Source of the DNA: a virus
DNA: 44,272 nt
Direction: 5' to 3' (one strand)
Virus record (IMG/VR): IMGVR_UViG_3300042542_005028
Span: 1 to 44,272 of that record
Numbering within the stretch: the stretch's first letter is position 1; every line of letters starts with the position of its first letter. A model generated the notes under the pieces. It saw nothing but the letters and a program-made list of their open reading frames with translations. It was not told the origin of the DNA and ran no database searches. The position numbers and the translations under genes were made by a program. Below, piece by piece: positions 7,410 to 39,593 of this stretch.

Positions 7410-8225
7410 GTGGCAACGCCCCGTAAAATATCAGATATAAGACCATTATTTACTAATCTTGCACAAACTTCTCACTATGAAGTCAGGTTTGGAGGTCTTC
7501 CAGATCAATTAAAAAAATATCTAGGTCAAAGGGGAATTACTGCAAGATTTATTGCAGAGGACGCTGGTTTGTTGTGTAATAATGCAGTTCTTCCAACAAC
7601 TCAACTTGCCACAGTAAATGTAGATGGAAATTATACAGGAATAACAGAAACATTTGCACATCGTAGACAATACCAAGATATAAGTCTTGAATTTTATGTT
7701 GATAAAAATTATAATACATTGAAATTTTTAGAGCATTGGATGGAATTCATTGCAAGTGGTTCTACAAATCCTGTTGATGGAAATAATGCACCAATTAATA
7801 GTAATATTGATCAGGGATACTTTATAAGAATGCAGTATCCTGAATATTACAAATCAAATAGAACTAGTATTATAAAATTTGACCGTGACTATCAAAGAGA
7901 AATCGAATATACTTTCATAGGTTTATATCCATACAGTATTGCATCAATACCTGTTGCATATTCTCAGTCAGATGTCATGAAAATGCAAGCATCATTTAAA
8001 ATGGATCGATATGTAATTGGTAAATCTTATAGTATTAACATTGCAAGAGTCGAAGACAATAACAGAGAACCAACTCAACCTTCACCAGGAGCACCGAGAA
8101 ATCAGACAAATCCAACTCCTGTTTTAAGAACACCTAGATCTCCTGGATCAATACCTTCAAATGGAGTTGAATTTTTGCGGTCTGACCTTTCTTTATATGA
8201 GAATTTATACGGGAAAGGGCAATAA
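7410..8225 (+). CDS. gp54: Baseplate tail-tube initiator gp54 (GTG start)
   Basis: gp54 binds gp48 on the baseplate and nucleates the gp19 tail tube. The 271-residue product resembles tail-tube proteins: His-Tyr-Glu-Val-Arg-Phe-Gly-Gly-Leu near residue 22, Cys-Asn-Asn-Ala-Val-Leu-Pro-Thr-Thr-Gln-Leu-Ala, Gly-Ile-Thr-Glu-Thr-Phe-Ala-His-x-Arg, and Leu-Glu-Phe-Tyr-Val-Asp-x-x-Tyr-x-x-Leu-Lys-Phe-Leu-Glu-x-Trp. The C-terminal 60 residues are Pro-rich and probably flexible. The start is GTG 7410, with AATAGG 9 bases upstream; no ATG gives the conserved N-terminus. A late-type promoter lies 33 bases upstream. Confidence 0.82.
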   Translation: MATPRKISDIRPLFTNLAQTSHYEVRFGGLPDQLKKYLGQRGITARFIAEDAGLLCNNAVLPTTQLATVNVDGNYTGITETFAHRRQYQDISLEFYVDKNYNTLKFLEHWMEFIASGSTNPVDGNNAPINSNIDQGYFIRMQYPEYYKSNRTSIIKFDRDYQREIEYTFIGLYPYSIASIPVAYSQSDVMKMQASFKMDRYVIGKSYSINIARVEDNNREPTQPSPGAPRNQTNPTPVLRTPRSPGSIPSNGVEFLRSDLSLYENLYGKGQ

Positions 8226-8252: not shown

Positions 8253-8972
8253 ATGCCATTACCGAAGATTGCAACTCCTTCATATACATTAGAAATTCCT
8301 TCACTTAAAAAAGAAATTAAATATCGTCCATTTCTTGTCAAAGAAGAAAAAATATTAATCATTGCTATGGAAAGTGAAGATTCCAAGCAAATTGCTGAGG
8401 CAGTTAAAACAGTAATTTCAAATTGTATTTTATCAAAGGGAATTAAAGTTGAACAACTTGCAACTTTTGATATTGAGTATCTATTTTTAAATATTCGTGG
8501 AAAGTCTGTCGGAGAAGCAGTTGATGTTCTGATCACATGTCCCGATGACGAAAAGACTCAAGTTCCTGTAAGTATTAACTTAGATGATATTGAAATTAAT
8601 ATCGATGAAAACCATTCTAGAGATATTAATTTGGATGATAATCTAACATTGAGAATGAAATATCCATCAATGAAAGAATTTGTGAAAACAAATTTTGGCA
8701 ATGACTTTAATATAAGTGTTGACGAAACTTTTGATTTAATTATTTCTTGTATTGAGCAGGTGTATAGTGAAGAAGAATCATGGTCAGCGGTTGATTGTAC
8801 AAAAAAAGAACTTTCAGAATTTATTGAACAATTGACTTCAACTCAATTTAAACAGATTGAAAAGTTTTTTGAAACAATGCCCAAACTTTCTCACACCATT
8901 AAGGTTAAAAATCCGAATACAGAAGTAGAGAGTGAAGTGTTGCTGGAGGGATTATCAAGTTTTTTCGCCTAG
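8253..8972 (+). CDS. gp26: Baseplate hub assembly protein gp26 (T4_baseplate family)
   Basis: T4 gp26 acts in baseplate hub assembly. The 239-residue product has the family's N-terminus (Pro-Leu-Pro-Lys-Ile-x-x-Pro-x-Tyr-x-Leu-x-Ile-Pro-Ser, then Lys-Tyr-Arg-Pro-Phe-Leu-Val-Lys-Glu-Glu-Lys). A helical segment follows with Asp-Ile-Glu-Tyr-Leu-Phe-Leu-Asn-Ile-Arg-Gly-Lys-Ser, then an acidic beta region and a helical C-terminus ending Ser-Phe-Phe-Ala. The protein is typically 200-240 residues. The last codons form a -1 frameshift site (see 8945-8966), so a longer gp26 fusion is probably also made. It lies directly before the frameshift partner and a tape-measure-like gene, the layout of tail assembly chaperones in other long-tailed phages. 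Confidence 0.85.
   Translation: MPLPKIATPSYTLEIPSLKKEIKYRPFLVKEEKILIIAMESEDSKQIAEAVKTVISNCILSKGIKVEQLATFDIEYLFLNIRGKSVGEAVDVLITCPDDEKTQVPVSINLDDIEINIDENHSRDINLDDNLTLRMKYPSMKEFVKTNFGNDFNISVDETFDLIISCIEQVYSEEESWSAVDCTKKELSEFIEQLTSTQFKQIEKFFETMPKLSHTIKVKNPNTEVESEVLLEGLSSFFA
8945..8966 (+). promoter_or_regulatory. Programmed -1 ribosomal frameshift signal
   Basis: The heptamer T TTT TTC (8960-8966) is in the exact X-XXY-YYZ register of the gp26 frame, two codons before its TAG. An internal Shine-Dalgarno-like GGAGGG (8945-8950) ends 9 bases upstream, close to the arrangement that stimulates -1 shifting in dnaX. After slippage the ribosome reads CGC CTA GGC ATG GCT, entering the frame of the 57-codon ORF with no stop between. 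A weak hairpin (GGCTCA 8977-8982 with TGAGTC 8992-8997) lies 10 bases downstream. The predicted fusion is 298 residues. Confidence 0.7.
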
Positions 8973-8974
8973 GC

Positions 8975-9148
8975 ATGGCTCATGAAAATCTTGAGTCATA
9001 TTATAAAACTAATTTTTCTCTGGTACAGCATCATAAATATTCATTGACAGAGATAGAAAATATGATACCATGGGAGAGAGAAATTTATATTGCTCTCCTT
9101 AAACAATACATTGAAGAAGAAAACCTAAAACACAGTGCAAATGGCTGA
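8975..9148 (+). CDS. 57-codon frameshift partner of gp26 (in the gp51 position)
   Basis: The ORF encodes a 57-residue protein: Met-Ala-His-Glu-Asn-Leu-Glu, Tyr-x-x-Asn-Phe-x-Leu-Val-Gln-His-His-Lys-Tyr-Ser-Leu-Thr-Glu-Ile-Glu-Asn-Met-Ile-Pro-Trp-Glu-Arg-Glu, then a charged helix. It occupies the place of T4 gene 51 but is far shorter than T4 gp51. The Thr-Glu-Ile-x-x-Met-x-Pro-Trp-Glu pattern recalls the short downstream domains of tail assembly chaperones. No good ribosome site precedes ATG 8975, since GGAGGG is 24 bases away. It is therefore more likely expressed as a -1 extension of gp26 than alone. Its end overlaps the next start by 8 bases. Confidence 0.75.
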   Translation: MAHENLESYYKTNFSLVQHHKYSLTEIENMIPWEREIYIALLKQYIEEENLKHSANG

Positions 9149-10802
9149 GATAGATCCAGAAAAAGTTGGAAAATCTGGCATTGATCCAATTACAGGATCT
9201 ATATTGTCTCAGGAAGTTAGAAATAGTCTTCTAAAAAAGACTACATTTGATGCATCAGTTTTTAGAAATGAATTATTAGCGGTTGAAGGTAGAAGAAGAG
9301 AATTAGACTTACAAAATACAAATGTTATTCGTGAGCAAGAAAATGTATTAATTGGGTTTAATTCAAATATTCAAGCACTAAGAAGTGATATTGGTAAACT
9401 TGGAACAGGTCTTGCAAATATAGCACTACTTCTCCAACAAGATGGTGCTGAGGAACAATCTAGACTTAGAGCAGATCAAGAAAAACAAAGAAGACTTGCA
9501 GAGCGTCAGGTTAGAATTGGTAAAGAAAGTGACATAGAAGAAAAAATACAAAGTGCTCTTGTGGCACCTGTTCAAAGATTGGTTCCTCAAGTAAATGATG
9601 TCTTTGGAAAAATTGGACAAGCACTTACAATTTTATTTGGTGGTTGGTTAACTACTCAAGTTATTCAAGCAATAAAAGCATCTGAAGAGGGCAATACAAA
9701 ATTATTCAATGATATTAAATTTAATATTCTCAAAAATCTTGCAATTGTTGGTGGTGGATTATTGGCAGTTAAAACAGGATTTTCTTTAGTTAAAAATACA
9801 ATTGCTAAAGTTGCATCCGGATTGACAAGATTACTAATTGCAAAACCACTTGCACTTGCTGCTGGGTTACTTAGAATTCCTGGAATGGGATCTGGTGGAA
9901 AACCACCCGCAACTACAGGACCAAAATCGGGAGGAATACTTGGAGGACTTGGAAAACTTCTTACAGGTTTAAGTGTCGCAATGAATCTTAAGAATAAGGA
10001 ATATATTGACACTGTGCTGGGTGGATTAAGTTTATTTGCAAAAGCACCAGGACCTATTGGATTAGTTGCCAAAGTTGCTGGAGTTGCATTTACTTTAGAT
10101 GAAATTGCAGAAGCTTTTGGTAAAAATATTTTTGGAGATGAGCGTGATAAAATTGTTAATGATGCGGCACAATCTGCAAAAAAAGAATTAGAAAAACTTA
10201 AATCATCAGAAACTACAAAAACAACACCATCTACAAAATCATTACCTTCTTCTGCACCACCGCAACCTATGGTGCAACCAAAAACACCTATGATGGGTGA
10301 GCAAAAACAAGAAGCAGCAACTCCCACACCAAGTCCAGAAAGAGTTTCTCAATTCGAGCAAGCATGGCAATACAGGAATAATCCTTTAGCAAGAGGGAGA
10401 ATAGAAGGTGCTTGGGATAAGATGAGTGATGAAGAACGCCGACAAGCAAAAGAATGGGCAAAATCAAAAGGATATAATTGGAATGAAATGAAATTGAAAG
10501 AGTCCTCTTCAATGATGAGTCAGACTCAAACAACTCCACAATCTATGAAAGAAAGTGCAGTTCCCGCACAAATGTCTACCCCAGCACAAGTTGCCGCATT
10601 GCCAAAAGAACCCGTAAAAGTTGGTCAACTTCCTGAACCAAAACCATCATTGACAATGATTAAAACATCAAACAATGCAAATCAACAACAAAATGTTCCT
10701 GTTACAAGTGGAGCATTATCTGATGTTCCTTTAATCAACTCTGCAAACCCCGATAATTTTTATGTTCTCTACTCCCAATTAACTTATAATGTGGTGATAT
10801 AA
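9141..10802 (+). CDS. Tape-measure-like / baseplate hub structural protein
   Basis: The 553-residue product (start ATG 9141; a GTG at 9135 adds two residues) has tape-measure-like features. The N-terminal coiled coil spans about residues 30-130 (Arg/Glu/Gln-rich with Leu repeats). Several hydrophobic segments follow around 155-320, including Leu-Phe-Gly-Gly-Trp-Leu and Gly-Gly-Gly-Leu-Leu-Ala-Val. A Pro/Gln/Ser-rich linker (about 350-500) leads to a conserved-looking C-terminal tail with Asn-Phe-Tyr-x-Leu-Tyr-Ser-x-Leu. It follows the gp26/frameshift pair, where other phages keep the tape measure gene, and may fill the role of T4 gp29 (590 residues). No direct gp29 sequence match was seen, so the assignment rests on size, layout and composition. 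Confidence 0.75.
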   Translation: MAEIDPEKVGKSGIDPITGSILSQEVRNSLLKKTTFDASVFRNELLAVEGRRRELDLQNTNVIREQENVLIGFNSNIQALRSDIGKLGTGLANIALLLQQDGAEEQSRLRADQEKQRRLAERQVRIGKESDIEEKIQSALVAPVQRLVPQVNDVFGKIGQALTILFGGWLTTQVIQAIKASEEGNTKLFNDIKFNILKNLAIVGGGLLAVKTGFSLVKNTIAKVASGLTRLLIAKPLALAAGLLRIPGMGSGGKPPATTGPKSGGILGGLGKLLTGLSVAMNLKNKEYIDTVLGGLSLFAKAPGPIGLVAKVAGVAFTLDEIAEAFGKNIFGDERDKIVNDAAQSAKKELEKLKSSETTKTTPSTKSLPSSAPPQPMVQPKTPMMGEQKQEAATPTPSPERVSQFEQAWQYRNNPLARGRIEGAWDKMSDEERRQAKEWAKSKGYNWNEMKLKESSSMMSQTQTTPQSMKESAVPAQMSTPAQVAALPKEPVKVGQLPEPKPSLTMIKTSNNANQQQNVPVTSGALSDVPLINSANPDNFYVLYSQLTYNVVI

Positions 10803-10803
10803 A

Positions 10804-12693
10804 ATGGCAACAATAGCAGATTCTCTTAAAAAGTCATCAATTAATATCAATACTATTTCCAAGTCGCTGACTGAAACAAAGAAAAATGTTTCTTCAGTGA
10901 ATGATTCTGTGAATAATATTTCCAGAATCATTGCAACAAATACTAGAGTTAAAAGAGAATTATTTGAAAATTCCAAAATTATTGGTATTAGAAGAGAAGA
11001 GGCATCAAAGAGACAACAACTTGAAGATCAGATAGAATCCTCAAAAGTTTCAACATCTCCATCAAGAGGTCTTGCTTTTGCTAACAGAAGCAATAAAGGA
11101 CCTTTGAGCAGATTATTAGGATTTTTGGGATTTACATTTGCTGGTTGGATTGTAGAAAATTTGCCCACATGGATTTTTATGGGAAAGGAATTTATTTCCA
11201 GAATTGAAATGTTTGGTAGATCAATGTATAATATGGTTGATAATATGAAATTAATCATAAGTTCTTTTGGATCTGTTTTAAAAAATTCTTTCAATGCTAT
11301 TATTACTTTAAATTTTGATGAATTTAGTGATGGGAGTGTTGCACAATCTTTTGATGAATTAAATCTTGCAGTTCAGAGTTTGGGAGATGATATTACTAAA
11401 ACATTTGAACTCTTTACAACTCCCCTAAACAAATCAGTAGAAACGGGTGAAGAAGGACCTGGACTTGGTGAAGAAAGACCTGATACGATGTTTCCAACTG
11501 AAGGTGGATACGCAACAGCAGGATTATCTGGAGTAGCAAAACAAAGAGTTGGAACTGATACAGCATTTTTGGGAGAAATTAAAAGAGTATCACAAAAATA
11601 TAATATCCGAGAAGGAGATTTACTGGGATTAATTGCCTCCGAAAGCGGATTCGATCCTTCTGCGGGACAAGTTGGTGGATATGTTGGTTTAATTCAATTT
11701 GGGGCGAATGAAGCAAGATCAGTAGGAACAACACAATCTGCTCTAATGAAAATGAGTAGAGCAGAACAAATGAAATATGTTGATAAGTATTTTGAAACAA
11801 GAAAATTGAAAAAGGGAGCAGGTGCTGGACAATTATATGCAACTGTTTTTGCTCCAGCATATGCTTCCGGCGATCCCAATAAAGTTCTTTATAGTTCACC
11901 TTCTAGAGAATATGCTTCAAATGCACCTCTTGATACTAATCAGGATGGAAAAATAACCATTGCTGAAATGGGTGGAAGAATTCAGAAGAAAAAGAAAGAA
12001 TTTGGTATTTCTGATAATGTTGTAATTACTTCCACAGCAGCACAATCACCTATGATACAAGTTCCTGCAGGAAATATAAAACCATTAGTTGGTGATAGAC
12101 TTGGTGCGGGTAGAAATCATGGTGGGGTCGATTTACAAGTTCCTTCAGGAACTCCATTGAGAGCAATTTCTGATGGTCAAATTGTTGACTCAGATTATGA
12201 AAAAGGATGGGGAAACTTTTTGGTGATGAAGGATAATCTTGGAATTTATCATTTATATGCTCATATGCAATCTGGATATAAAAAAGGAGGTACAGTTAAA
12301 AAAGGAGAAGTAATTGGAAAGGTAGGGATGTCTGGAAGAACTACTGGACCCCATCTTCATTGGGAAACAGGAACTGGGTGGAATGGTGGAATAATAACAG
12401 GAAGATTTGATGCTCTTAATAAGTATAGTAAATATGCACCATTTAATACATCATCCGAATATTCAAAAACTCAGGCACAAATTTCAGCACCTCCAACAAG
12501 AGTGGCACAACCTGCTGCGATGACTCCTCAGAGAAAAGGATCTCAGGTTGTAATTATAGATGACACAAAACCACAACAATCCCAAGTATCCTATCCAGCA
12601 GAACAACCATCATACGCACCAACAATCAGTGAATTTAAATTGTTAAATAATTTTATTAAAAACAAACTTTTAATCGATCTTGCGTACCTATAA
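10804..12693 (+). CDS. Tail hub lysin: tape-measure-like N-terminus, lytic transglycosylase, EF-hand loop, M23 peptidase
   Basis: The 629-residue product probably opens the cell wall during DNA entry. Residues 1-80 form a coiled coil; 95-170 are hydrophobic with Phe-Ala-Gly-Trp-Ile, parallel to the upstream protein. Around 255-355 is a lytic-transglycosylase-like domain (Leu-Leu-Gly-Leu-Ile-Ala-Ser-Glu-Ser-Gly-Phe-Asp-Pro, candidate catalytic Glu279; Gly-Leu-Ile-Gln-Phe). At about 377-388, Asp-Thr-Asn-Gln-Asp-Gly-Lys-Ile-x-x-x-Glu is a canonical calcium EF-hand loop. Residues 415-535 are an M23 (LytM) endopeptidase with His439-x-x-x-Asp443 and His517-Leu-His519 zinc ligands and Gly-Pro-His-Leu-His. 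A Gln/Pro linker and a C-terminal tail resembling the upstream protein's end follow. Confidence 0.9.
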   Translation: MATIADSLKKSSININTISKSLTETKKNVSSVNDSVNNISRIIATNTRVKRELFENSKIIGIRREEASKRQQLEDQIESSKVSTSPSRGLAFANRSNKGPLSRLLGFLGFTFAGWIVENLPTWIFMGKEFISRIEMFGRSMYNMVDNMKLIISSFGSVLKNSFNAIITLNFDEFSDGSVAQSFDELNLAVQSLGDDITKTFELFTTPLNKSVETGEEGPGLGEERPDTMFPTEGGYATAGLSGVAKQRVGTDTAFLGEIKRVSQKYNIREGDLLGLIASESGFDPSAGQVGGYVGLIQFGANEARSVGTTQSALMKMSRAEQMKYVDKYFETRKLKKGAGAGQLYATVFAPAYASGDPNKVLYSSPSREYASNAPLDTNQDGKITIAEMGGRIQKKKKEFGISDNVVITSTAAQSPMIQVPAGNIKPLVGDRLGAGRNHGGVDLQVPSGTPLRAISDGQIVDSDYEKGWGNFLVMKDNLGIYHLYAHMQSGYKKGGTVKKGEVIGKVGMSGRTTGPHLHWETGTGWNGGIITGRFDALNKYSKYAPFNTSSEYSKTQAQISAPPTRVAQPAAMTPQRKGSQVVIIDDTKPQQSQVSYPAEQPSYAPTISEFKLLNNFIKNKLLIDLAYL

Positions 12694-14033
12694 TGTCAAT
12701 TAAAAAGTCGATATACGAAGAGTTAATATTAGAATCTAATGATAGATCTAGAACTATAGATCTTACAACTGGAGTAATTCTTTTTGAATACTATGAAGAT
12801 ATTTTTTCACCAACAATTACTGCAAAAGTTAAAGTTGTTGACAATGGTAATGTCATTGCGCCTAAAGATAATCCAGATGGAAATAAGCAAGCAATTTATA
12901 ATGGACTTCCTTTAAGAGGTGGTGAAAGACTTTCACTCAAAATCGCAGGAAACTCTGCAACTAATCCTGGTTTAAATTTTTCTAAAAAAACTGATGATTA
13001 CTTTTATGTTTCAAGTATTACTGATGTTATTTCAGAAACAAACAGAGAAACATTTACATTACATTTAACATCAAGAGAAGCAATCACCAATGAAACATCA
13101 AGAGTTTCAAAAAAATTTCCAACTTCATTAAGAATTAGTGATTCTGTTCAAAGAATCTTAAATGATTATCTAAAAACAAATAAAATAGGAAAAATTGATT
13201 CTTCTTCAAACAAGTATGGATTTATTGGAAATCTAAGAAAACCATTTACTGTTCTAATTTGGTTAGCATCAAAAGCAGTTCCAGAAAGTTCTGGAAATCC
13301 CACCGCTGGATTTTTATTTTATCAAACCCAAGATGGATTTCAATTTAGATCTCTTGATGAACTGATTGTCCAAACTCCTAAAGCAACTTATACTTACACA
13401 GAATCATCAGAATCTTATGATGAGAGTGATAAAAAAGTTAATAATGATTTTAAAATCTTGAATTATTATACTGATAAAAACCAAAATTTGATTGAAAAAC
13501 TTAGATTGGGAACTTATGCAACTCAAAGAATGTTCTTTAACCCTTTGGATTTTTCATTCTCAAGTCCAGAAAAAGGTCTTTTTAGTTCAAAAGATTATTC
13601 TGGAAAAGCAAAAACTCTTGGTAGTAGATTAAAACTTCCTCCTATTGCGGAGGGATCTGACAAATCTTTAGGTGATGTTCCAACTCGTATTATTACTGCA
13701 ATTTATGATGTTGGAACTTTAGAACAGGGAGTATCAAAAGAAATCAATTCTGATCAAGGTCAATATCAATCACAGAGTTTAATGAGATATAATACTATGT
13801 TTACTCAAATAGTAAGCATGGTTGTTCCATCAAATACAAATTTAAGAGCTGGTGATGTGATTGAATGTAATTTTCCAAAAATTACACAATCTGATGCAAA
13901 AGAATTTGATTCTGAGACAAGTGGACTATATATGATTAAGGAAATATGTCATCACTTTAATACTGAAAATTCGTACACTTCGATGAAACTTATAAGAGAT
14001 ACTTTTGGTATAAGTAAAGAGGCAAAAAAATAA
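12693..14033 (+). CDS. Baseplate hub protein, gp27-like
   Basis: The 446-residue protein has the size and position of a gp27/gpD-type hub: it follows the tape-measure-like genes and precedes the OB-fold spike protein. The N-terminal beta domain contains Leu-Phe-Glu-Tyr-Tyr-Glu-Asp-Ile-Phe-Ser-Pro-Thr-Ile-Thr-Ala-Lys-Val-Lys-Val-Val-Asp. Gly-Phe-Leu-Phe-Tyr-Gln-Thr-Gln-Asp-Gly-Phe-x-Phe-Arg-Ser-Leu-Asp follows near residue 210. The C-terminal strand Leu-Arg-Ala-Gly-Asp-Val-Ile-Glu-Cys-x-Phe and Gly-Leu-Tyr-Met-Ile-Lys-Glu-Ile-Cys-His-His-Phe resemble the hub barrels of contractile tails. Direct sequence identity to T4 gp27 is not evident, so the name is by architecture. Confidence 0.78.
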   Translation: MSIKKSIYEELILESNDRSRTIDLTTGVILFEYYEDIFSPTITAKVKVVDNGNVIAPKDNPDGNKQAIYNGLPLRGGERLSLKIAGNSATNPGLNFSKKTDDYFYVSSITDVISETNRETFTLHLTSREAITNETSRVSKKFPTSLRISDSVQRILNDYLKTNKIGKIDSSSNKYGFIGNLRKPFTVLIWLASKAVPESSGNPTAGFLFYQTQDGFQFRSLDELIVQTPKATYTYTESSESYDESDKKVNNDFKILNYYTDKNQNLIEKLRLGTYATQRMFFNPLDFSFSSPEKGLFSSKDYSGKAKTLGSRLKLPPIAEGSDKSLGDVPTRIITAIYDVGTLEQGVSKEINSDQGQYQSQSLMRYNTMFTQIVSMVVPSNTNLRAGDVIECNFPKITQSDAKEFDSETSGLYMIKEICHHFNTENSYTSMKLIRDTFGISKEAKK

Positions 14034-15981: not shown

Positions 15982-16545
15982 ATGGCAGAAAGAAATAAAA
16001 ATATATTTAAGAGACAAATAATCAGTTTTAATCCGAATTTTAGAATTGATACTGCAAACCCACAAATGGGTTTATCTGGTATGGATGTTTATAAAATTTA
16101 TGGTGTAACTGATAATGGAGACAATCAATCATCAATTTCTTTAAGTAGCGGTGGAATATTTTCAATTTATAATGATCGTACCATTCAAATTTCTGGTGGA
16201 TCAAAACATGAAGAGGGAAGAGAAGATATAATTATTATTGGAAATAATGGAAATGTTTCAATTACTGCAAATGGAATGGTTCGCATTCGCGGAACTTCTA
16301 TTATGCTTGAAGCAGATGAAGATATACACTTAAAGGCAGGCAGAAATATTGATCTTAAAAGTGGATCTGGTCGAACTCTAATACAAGGTAATAAAATTGA
16401 TATAACAGCACAAACTGGAAATTTAATTGATGAACTGGGAAAGGGATTTTTAAAGAGTGTTTTTGCTGGTACATATGTTGGTGGAGATTTTCTTGGTGGG
16501 TTTATCAGTGGAGTTTCTAAAGCAGTTTTAAATTCTGTATTATAA
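15982..16545 (+). CDS. Separate beta-helix spike (gp5 C-terminal-like)
   Basis: The 187-residue protein has a central run of short alternating strands (about residues 50-150): Gly-Gly-Ile-Phe-Ser-Ile-Tyr-Asn-Asp, Gly-Asn-Val-Ser-Ile-Thr-Ala-Asn-Gly, Val-Arg-Ile-Arg-Gly-Thr-Ser-Ile-x-Leu-Glu-Ala, Ile-His-Leu-Lys-Ala-Gly-Arg-Asn-Ile-Asp-Leu-Lys-Ser-Gly-Ser-Gly, Ile-Asp-Ile-Thr-Ala. This is the pattern of gp5 C-terminal and VgrG needle beta-helices. A glycine-rich hydrophobic C-terminus follows (Gly-Gly-Asp-Phe-Leu-Gly-Gly-Phe-Ile-Ser-Gly). It starts two bases after the OB-fold gene and overlaps nothing, so T4 gp5 appears divided into two genes. A separate tip cap (gp5.4/PAAR) was not recognised. 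Confidence 0.8.
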   Translation: MAERNKNIFKRQIISFNPNFRIDTANPQMGLSGMDVYKIYGVTDNGDNQSSISLSSGGIFSIYNDRTIQISGGSKHEEGREDIIIIGNNGNVSITANGMVRIRGTSIMLEADEDIHLKAGRNIDLKSGSGRTLIQGNKIDITAQTGNLIDELGKGFLKSVFAGTYVGGDFLGGFISGVSKAVLNSVL

Positions 16546-38373: not shown

Positions 38374-38844
38374 ATGACTAAAAAGACTAAAAAAATCTCC
38401 CAACAGCAGAAAGAAAAATTCTTTGCTGAAGGCAATACACTTCCTACATGTATCAATGAAGGTTGTGACAACTTTGTACAAGTTCGTGAATGGAAATACT
38501 GGTCATTTAAATCAGAATGTTCCGCTTGTGCATCTGCAAGAAAAAAAGGTATCACTCGTCCTGGTGTAACGCAACATAAGAAATCATATTGCGAAAATCA
38601 TGACGGACATCTTGGTTGGGCATGTCCAGTTCCTAAAGATGGTTGGAATGGATTTGAGAATTCTTTGGATCTTGATCATTTGGATGGCAATCATTATAAT
38701 AATGTTCCAGATAATGTTAATACTTATTGTAAACTCTGTCATGGTAGAAAATCAATCGTTAATGGAGATTGTGACAGTAACAAAGCGTCAGGTCGAAAAC
38801 TTCAATGGATAAAATCCTTAAAGGAGATTCCTCTCAACTTCTAA
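38374..38844 (+). CDS. HNH nuclease overlapping a DNA methyltransferase gene
   Basis: The 156-residue protein (ATG 38374; the upstream in-frame ATG 38305 would lie in the promoter) has a basic N-terminus, Cys pairs at 26/31 and 49/52, Cys73 and Cys84. An HNH core follows: Leu-Asp-Leu-Asp101-His102-Leu-Asp-Gly-Asn-His, Asn115, Cys119-x-x-Cys122-His123. The Asp-His, Asn and His residues are those of an active enzyme. Its last 40 bases overlap the methyltransferase start. It may be a homing enzyme or the nuclease half of a modification-linked pair. The substrate is unknown. Confidence 0.85.
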   Translation: MTKKTKKISQQQKEKFFAEGNTLPTCINEGCDNFVQVREWKYWSFKSECSACASARKKGITRPGVTQHKKSYCENHDGHLGWACPVPKDGWNGFENSLDLDHLDGNHYNNVPDNVNTYCKLCHGRKSIVNGDCDSNKASGRKLQWIKSLKEIPLNF

Positions 38845-39593
38845 AGGAACTAGGGAGTGAGAGTGTGCATTTAACTTGCACCTCTCCTCCTTATTACAAT
38901 GCTAGAGAATATTCAACTTGGTCAACATATCAGGATTATCTTGACTTTTTGAAATCTGTATTCTTAGAAGTTTTAAGAGTCACTCAACCAGGTAGAATGT
39001 GCGTTGTTAATTTGTCTCCTATAATTGAGGCAAGGCAATCGAGGGCACATGAAAGTAAAAGGATGGCAATTCCATTTCATTTCTTTTCTCTAATGGAAGA
39101 AATGGGATGGAAATATATTGATGACATTATTTGGTTAAAACCTGAAGGTGCATCAATTAATCGAAATGGAGGATTTTTTCAACATCGCAAACCAGTTGCA
39201 TATAAACCAAATATTGTAACTGAAACAATCTTTGTATTTCAAAAACCAGCGCCATTTTTAATTGATAAGATAGTTAGATCTTATGAAGGTGATATATTGG
39301 AACAATCACTTGTCAAAGAAAACTATGAACGATCAAATGTTTGGAAGATTAATCCTGAAACACACTCCAAGCACTTGGCACCATATCCAAAAGAACTTTC
39401 AGATCGAATCATCAAATATTACAGTTATGTTGGGGATTTAGTCCTGGATCCTTTTATGGGTTCTGGTACAACTGCAATTTCCTGTATTGATTTGAGGAGA
39501 AAGTATCTTGGAATTGAAATTCATCAAGAATATGTTAATATGGCAATGGATCGAATTCGATCTTTCAACCCTTTAGAGAATTTTTTTAATTGA
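38805..39593 (+). CDS. N4-cytosine/N6-adenine DNA methyltransferase (beta-type order)
   Basis: The 262-residue protein carries motif IV Thr-Ser-Pro-Pro-Tyr-Tyr at about residues 27-32 and motif I Asp-Pro-Phe-Met-Gly-Ser-Gly-Thr-Thr near 215-223, followed by Gly-Ile-Glu. The catalytic motif comes before the SAM-binding motif, as in the beta class. Ser-Pro-Pro-Tyr favours N4-cytosine methylation, though adenine enzymes also use it. The middle segment (about 60-200, with Ile-Trp-Leu-Lys-Pro-Glu-Gly) is presumably the target-recognition part. It probably protects phage DNA from host restriction or from the adjacent HNH nuclease. Confidence 0.9.
   Translation: MDKILKGDSSQLLKELGSESVHLTCTSPPYYNAREYSTWSTYQDYLDFLKSVFLEVLRVTQPGRMCVVNLSPIIEARQSRAHESKRMAIPFHFFSLMEEMGWKYIDDIIWLKPEGASINRNGGFFQHRKPVAYKPNIVTETIFVFQKPAPFLIDKIVRSYEGDILEQSLVKENYERSNVWKINPETHSKHLAPYPKELSDRIIKYYSYVGDLVLDPFMGSGTTAISCIDLRRKYLGIEIHQEYVNMAMDRIRSFNPLENFFN

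Follow-up and report, generated by a model that had tools for sequence, protein, structure and literature searches.

Whether all ribosomes translating gp26 of a T4-like phage halt at its stop codon, or whether some of them slip back one base and read on into the short open frame behind it, is the question raised by the 44,272-nt virus record IMGVR_UViG_3300042542_005028 (positions 1 to 44,272; the window). The gp26 gene (8253-8972, 239 amino acids; all features given here lie on the + strand) follows a gene for a tail-tube-fold protein (7410-8225; PF23849, E 2.3e-18; phrog_45, E 2.1e-36) and ends in T TTT TTC GCC TAG, with TTT at 8961-8963 and TTC at 8964-8966. The initial annotation had placed a slippery heptamer, T TTT TTC (8960-8966), in the gp26 register and a Shine-Dalgarno-like GGAGGG (8945-8950) inside gp26 with a gap of 9 nt to the heptamer, and both sets of coordinates were verified. 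Its distance to the stop had to be corrected, since one codon (GCC), and not two, separates the heptamer from the zero-frame TAG (8970-8972). Reading after a slip starts at 8966 (CGC) and stays open for 60 codons up to the TGA at 9146-9148, running without a stop into the 57-codon open reading frame as had been described. The ATG of that frame at 8975 lacks a Shine-Dalgarno motif at normal spacing, with GGAGGG ending 24 nt away. Translation reproduced the 298-residue -1 product and its predicted junction, SSFFRLGM.

The gp26 gene and its 60-codon -1 extension very probably constitute one tail assembly chaperone gene of a T4-like cyanophage, with a short form ending at the TAG stop and a long form made by a -1 slip; the occurrence and rate of slippage, like the chaperone role, are what we infer from sequence. 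Most ribosomes would stop at TAG 8970 and release the short form of 239 amino acids (TAC-N). At U UUU UUC a fraction would shift by -1 and yield the 298-amino-acid long form with the gp51 C-terminal domain (TAC-NC); the GGAGGG 9 nt upstream and a hairpin 8 nt downstream would keep the ribosome in place on the slippery site. While the tail tube is assembled, the tape measure protein would be chaperoned by both forms, in the manner of lambda G and GT. In T4 itself, genes 26 and 51 encode this pair separately.

Identity of the two halves and of the adjacent tail genes

The short form matched the Pfam family T4_baseplate (PF12322, E 3.5e-75) and phrog_150 (E 2.3e-80). From the slip site on, the -1 product (8966-9148, TAC-C) matched phrog_634, 'baseplate hub assembly catalyst' (E 7e-29), and the C-terminal end of phrog_150 (E 7e-8), and the phrog_634 match begins at the slip site, upstream of the ATG of the small frame. 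In relatives the extension is annotated as gp51, 'baseplate hub assembly catalyst'. Judged by these homologies, the 57-codon frame is the C-terminal domain of gp51. The annotated gp51 is truncated in the records of P-HM2, HTVC008M, and Aeromonas 65, and in Aeromonas phage CC2 (L351, 2196-2364) the -1 extension is present and gp51 is unannotated.

Profile alignments (hhalign, pairwise E values) connected both forms to T4, where genes 26 and 51 are separate and divergent. T4 gp51 aligned with residues 23-290 of the fusion profile, including the -1 region (E 4.6e-16), T4 gp26 aligned with the short form (E 6.9e-19), and gp26 and gp51 aligned with each other (E 6.6e-7). Because T4 gp51 matches the whole fusion and T4 gp26 the short form, gp26 and its extension are identified as a tail assembly chaperone pair. 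The match between the fusion and T4 gp51 thus supports the earlier suggestion that gp26 and its partner are the T4-like equivalent of lambda G/GT. The end of T4 gene 26 reads GAG TTC TTT GAG, in which Phe-Phe is kept and slipperiness is gone. A structure model of gp26 had a pLDDT of 87, and its best fold match in the PDB was the HK97 tail assembly chaperone 2ob9, at a non-significant level (E 1.5, probability 0.69, 62 columns); a sequence search of gp26 against the PDB returned nothing relevant.

The genes after the chaperone belong to the tail cluster. The next gene (9141-10802, 553 amino acids) had been called tape-measure-like, a label based on position only; assignment by homology was rejected, as no similarity to T4 gp29 was detectable, and its protein had no significant phrog or Pfam match. 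A second tape-measure candidate is the 629-amino-acid tail protein encoded at 10804-12693, which has SLT-like and M23 peptidase domains (PF01551, E 1.4e-24). N-terminal similarity between the 553- and 629-amino-acid proteins is weak (hhalign, E 3.2e-5), and the two look like duplicates of a tail protein, of which one has an M23 peptidase. The similarity is stronger between their counterparts in S-PM2 (1167 and 749 amino acids; BLASTP, E about 1e-26).

Conservation of the slip site and its flanking signals

Among annotated phages, the freshwater cyanophage S-SRM01 is closest to the source phage (gp26 87% identical) and has the same heptamer and the same hairpin. Heptamer TTTTTTC was present at the same place in all 80 IMG/VR loci of the first set compared. 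Alignment of the gp26 junctions across relatives, the check proposed in the initial annotation, showed T_TTT_TTN near the gp26 stop in 336 of 339 evaluable loci (314 T_TTT_TT[CT] and 22 T_TTT_TTA; related sequences enter the counts separately except where noted), an open -1 frame, and a Shine-Dalgarno-like motif 8-11 nt before the heptamer in most unique junctions. The gp26 stop lies 0-1 codons past the heptamer in 234 of 243 unique junctions. This layout is shared by S-PM2, P-HM2, Melnitz, HTVC008M, ME01, pf16, KVP40, and Aeromonas 65, and also by Stenotrophomonas Bhz51, OLIVR6, phiM7, Cr30, S-CRM01, CC2, D527, and S-SRM01. The rhizobial phages RHph_I1_9 and phiM9 have TTTTTTG at the site. 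In the 22 TTTTTTA variants the zero-frame Phe becomes Leu and slipperiness is retained, which argues that nucleotides, and not protein, are being kept.

Relatives without a slippery site had been named beforehand as evidence against a shift, and three of the 339 evaluable loci lacked T_TTT_TTN: L179, which is apparently frameshifted upstream, Vibrio phage D533, and gp51 of Aeromonas phage 25, a T4-type single gene. D533 (L089, about 2148-2400) has a gp26 homolog, an open -1 frame and a gp51-like extension without the canonical heptamer, and may use a different slip or reinitiation.

Chance was considered within the record itself. Its 30 plausible genes (12,334 codon positions) contain four in-register T_TTT_TTH sites. 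Two of these lie close to a stop, and the gp26 site alone opens into a long -1 frame; when the downstream stretch was shuffled, the -1 frame stayed open in 0.7% of trials. The conservation of the heptamer in 336 of the 339 relatives removes the chance explanation. Slippery-looking ends of the genes at 12693-14033, 15982-16545, and 38805-39593 were rejected, their -1 frames closing within 14 codons. The last of these has T_TTT_TTT three codons ahead of its stop and a -1 frame that closes immediately, and is no frameshift candidate.

A hairpin follows the heptamer after an 8-nt spacer, with its 5' arm ATGGCTCA at 8975-8982 pairing with the 3' arm TGAGTCAT at 8992-8999. Among the relatives, the mean minimum free energy of 40-nt windows peaked at +0 to +40 after the heptamer (-9.1 vs. 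about -3 elsewhere), and junctions were more stable than their -1-frame synonymous recodings (mean z -2.4). Pair +14/+28 (8980/8994) occurs as T-A, G-C or A-T and was paired in all 50 unique clade sequences, compared with 24.9 expected from independent columns, with six changes inferred on each side of the pair on the tree. Protein constraint does not explain this match, because changes at +14 fall in the silent third position of an Ala codon and those at +28 in the second position of a Glu, Ala or Val codon. Covariation within the clade comes mainly from this pair, most other stem pairs being invariant. Other clades have different stems at different positions, and in some cases, Aeromonas 65 among them, the hairpin prediction is weak. 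Across relatives, GAG accounts for 65% of the Glu codons at the upstream motif vs. a background of 29%, a codon bias in favor of GGAGG, and the motif is weaker outside cyanophages. We infer that the GGAGGG motif and the hairpin would stimulate slippage.

Coding in the -1 frame and rival explanations

The start-codon and selection analysis covered 237 unique junctions with a complete -1 frame and counted ATG, GTG, and TTG as starts. One of these codons lies within the first nine -1 codons in about 58% of the junctions, where separate translation of the small frame is possible. In the 100 junctions whose first nine -1 codons include no start, pN/pS over codons 4-18 was 0.19 in the -1 frame, compared with 1.69 and 1.65 in the other two frames. 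When the start-free stretch was extended to 18 codons, 64 junctions remained, and here too purifying selection was restricted to the -1 frame (codons 4-18; pN/pS 0.22 vs. 1.61 and 1.57). Junctions that have no start and are under -1 frame selection provide our strongest argument for ribosome entry from gp26. The initially proposed programmed -1 frameshift with an upstream Shine-Dalgarno-like stimulator is therefore supported by heptamer retention, selection in the -1 frame and a covarying hairpin.

These data bear directly on the alternative that no frameshift occurs and that gp51 is a small gene of its own, its translation starting at ATG 8975, just past the gp26 stop, by reinitiation or coupling. 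The ATG in this phage, an early ATG in 101 of the 237 unique junctions, the overlap of stop and start in, for example, KVP40 (TAATG) and Cr30 (TGATG), and database annotation of gp51 as its own gene all speak for such an arrangement, which we nevertheless regard as highly improbable. It leaves the nucleotide-level retention of the heptamer and the hairpin unexplained, the fusion has its match in T4 gp51, a single uninterrupted protein, and in 64 of the 237 junctions a stretch with no start in its first 18 codons is still under purifying selection; as the sole explanation, it was ruled out by these start-less relatives with coding selection. In KVP40 (L087, 2320-2324) and Bhz51 (L091, 2230-2234), TAATG or TGATG contains both the stop of gp26 and the start of gp51, and reinitiation could, to judge from this arrangement, add to frameshifting there. 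Somewhat less improbable, though still unlikely, is that both processes operate, with the frameshift making the long form and lineages with an early ATG also making the small C-terminal domain alone. An ATG at the fourth -1 codon is indeed common (86 junctions), but the ATG has no well-spaced Shine-Dalgarno motif, sits in the hairpin stem and is replaced by TTG in three loci (L068, L071, and L077).

Runs of T are error-prone in some sequencing methods, so the heptamer might reflect a sequencing or assembly error, or the locus a decayed gene. We give this reading practically no weight: the same site recurs in hundreds of independently assembled contigs and many complete isolate genomes, a conservation that rules out sequencing error, and purifying selection continues past the site. 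A single chaperone gene read in two frames by -1 slippage is the explanation that we favor.

Relation to known frameshift systems

The 2022 abstract of Vladimirov and colleagues reportedly describes several T4-like groups as using a frameshift, and names genes 26 and 51 for T4. The lambda G/GT tail assembly chaperones were reportedly treated by Xu, Hendrix and Duda in 2004. Like lambda G/GT, the gp26 locus lies among tail genes and is predicted to yield a short and a long product, the latter through a -1 slip close to the 3' end of the gene; unlike lambda, which has G GGA AAG, it has the heptamer T TTT TTC. The dnaX gene of E. coli undergoes a -1 frameshift at A AAA AAG, and its shifted product is the shorter one. 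With dnaX the locus shares an internal Shine-Dalgarno motif about 10 nt upstream, a heptamer and a downstream hairpin; it differs in its T TTT TTC heptamer and its longer product. The site combines the elements of a canonical bacterial -1 site, namely X_XXY_YYZ in register, downstream RNA structure and an upstream Shine-Dalgarno-like motif. As expected of a TAC pair, it has predicted short and long forms linked by frameshifting at one locus, with homology to T4 gp26 and gp51.

The initial annotation had regarded such a pair as undescribed for this group, but T4-like tail assembly chaperones had been identified by Vladimirov, Gautam and Davidson (2022, Virology 566:9-15, doi 10.1016/j.virol.2021.11.003). 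As represented in papers citing that study, a -1 frameshift of T4-like chaperones is already proposed there, with the same genes and the same -1 shift, to which the source phage adds a further member of freshwater cyanophage type. One of the citing papers described poly-T frameshift signals in T4-like phages (PMC12846349). Some T4-like phages have separate short and long genes (PMC10885494, PMC10274946), and a review of T4 counts gp26 and gp51 among the chaperones of hub assembly (PMC3004832). A -1 frameshift with a GTTTTT motif has also been proposed for the tail chaperone gene of Vandenendeviridae and Andersonviridae (PMC12846349), likewise supported by conservation; these phages differ from the source phage in family and in motif. 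The loss of start codons under coding selection, the Phe-to-Leu heptamers and the hairpin were found here. In the literature consulted, with that study represented through its citing papers only, we found no description of the covarying hairpin or of survival of the slip site across hundreds of relatives, both of which lend the frameshift strong support.

For T4-like phages as a group, we lean toward a recoding signal composed of the Shine-Dalgarno-like motif, T_TTT_TTN and a hairpin, in which the heptamer would be nearly fixed, the hairpin would have been repeatedly replaced by other stems elsewhere, and T4 would have escaped by way of separate genes. The hairpin families are natural variants with which to study the stimulation of bacterial -1 slippage.
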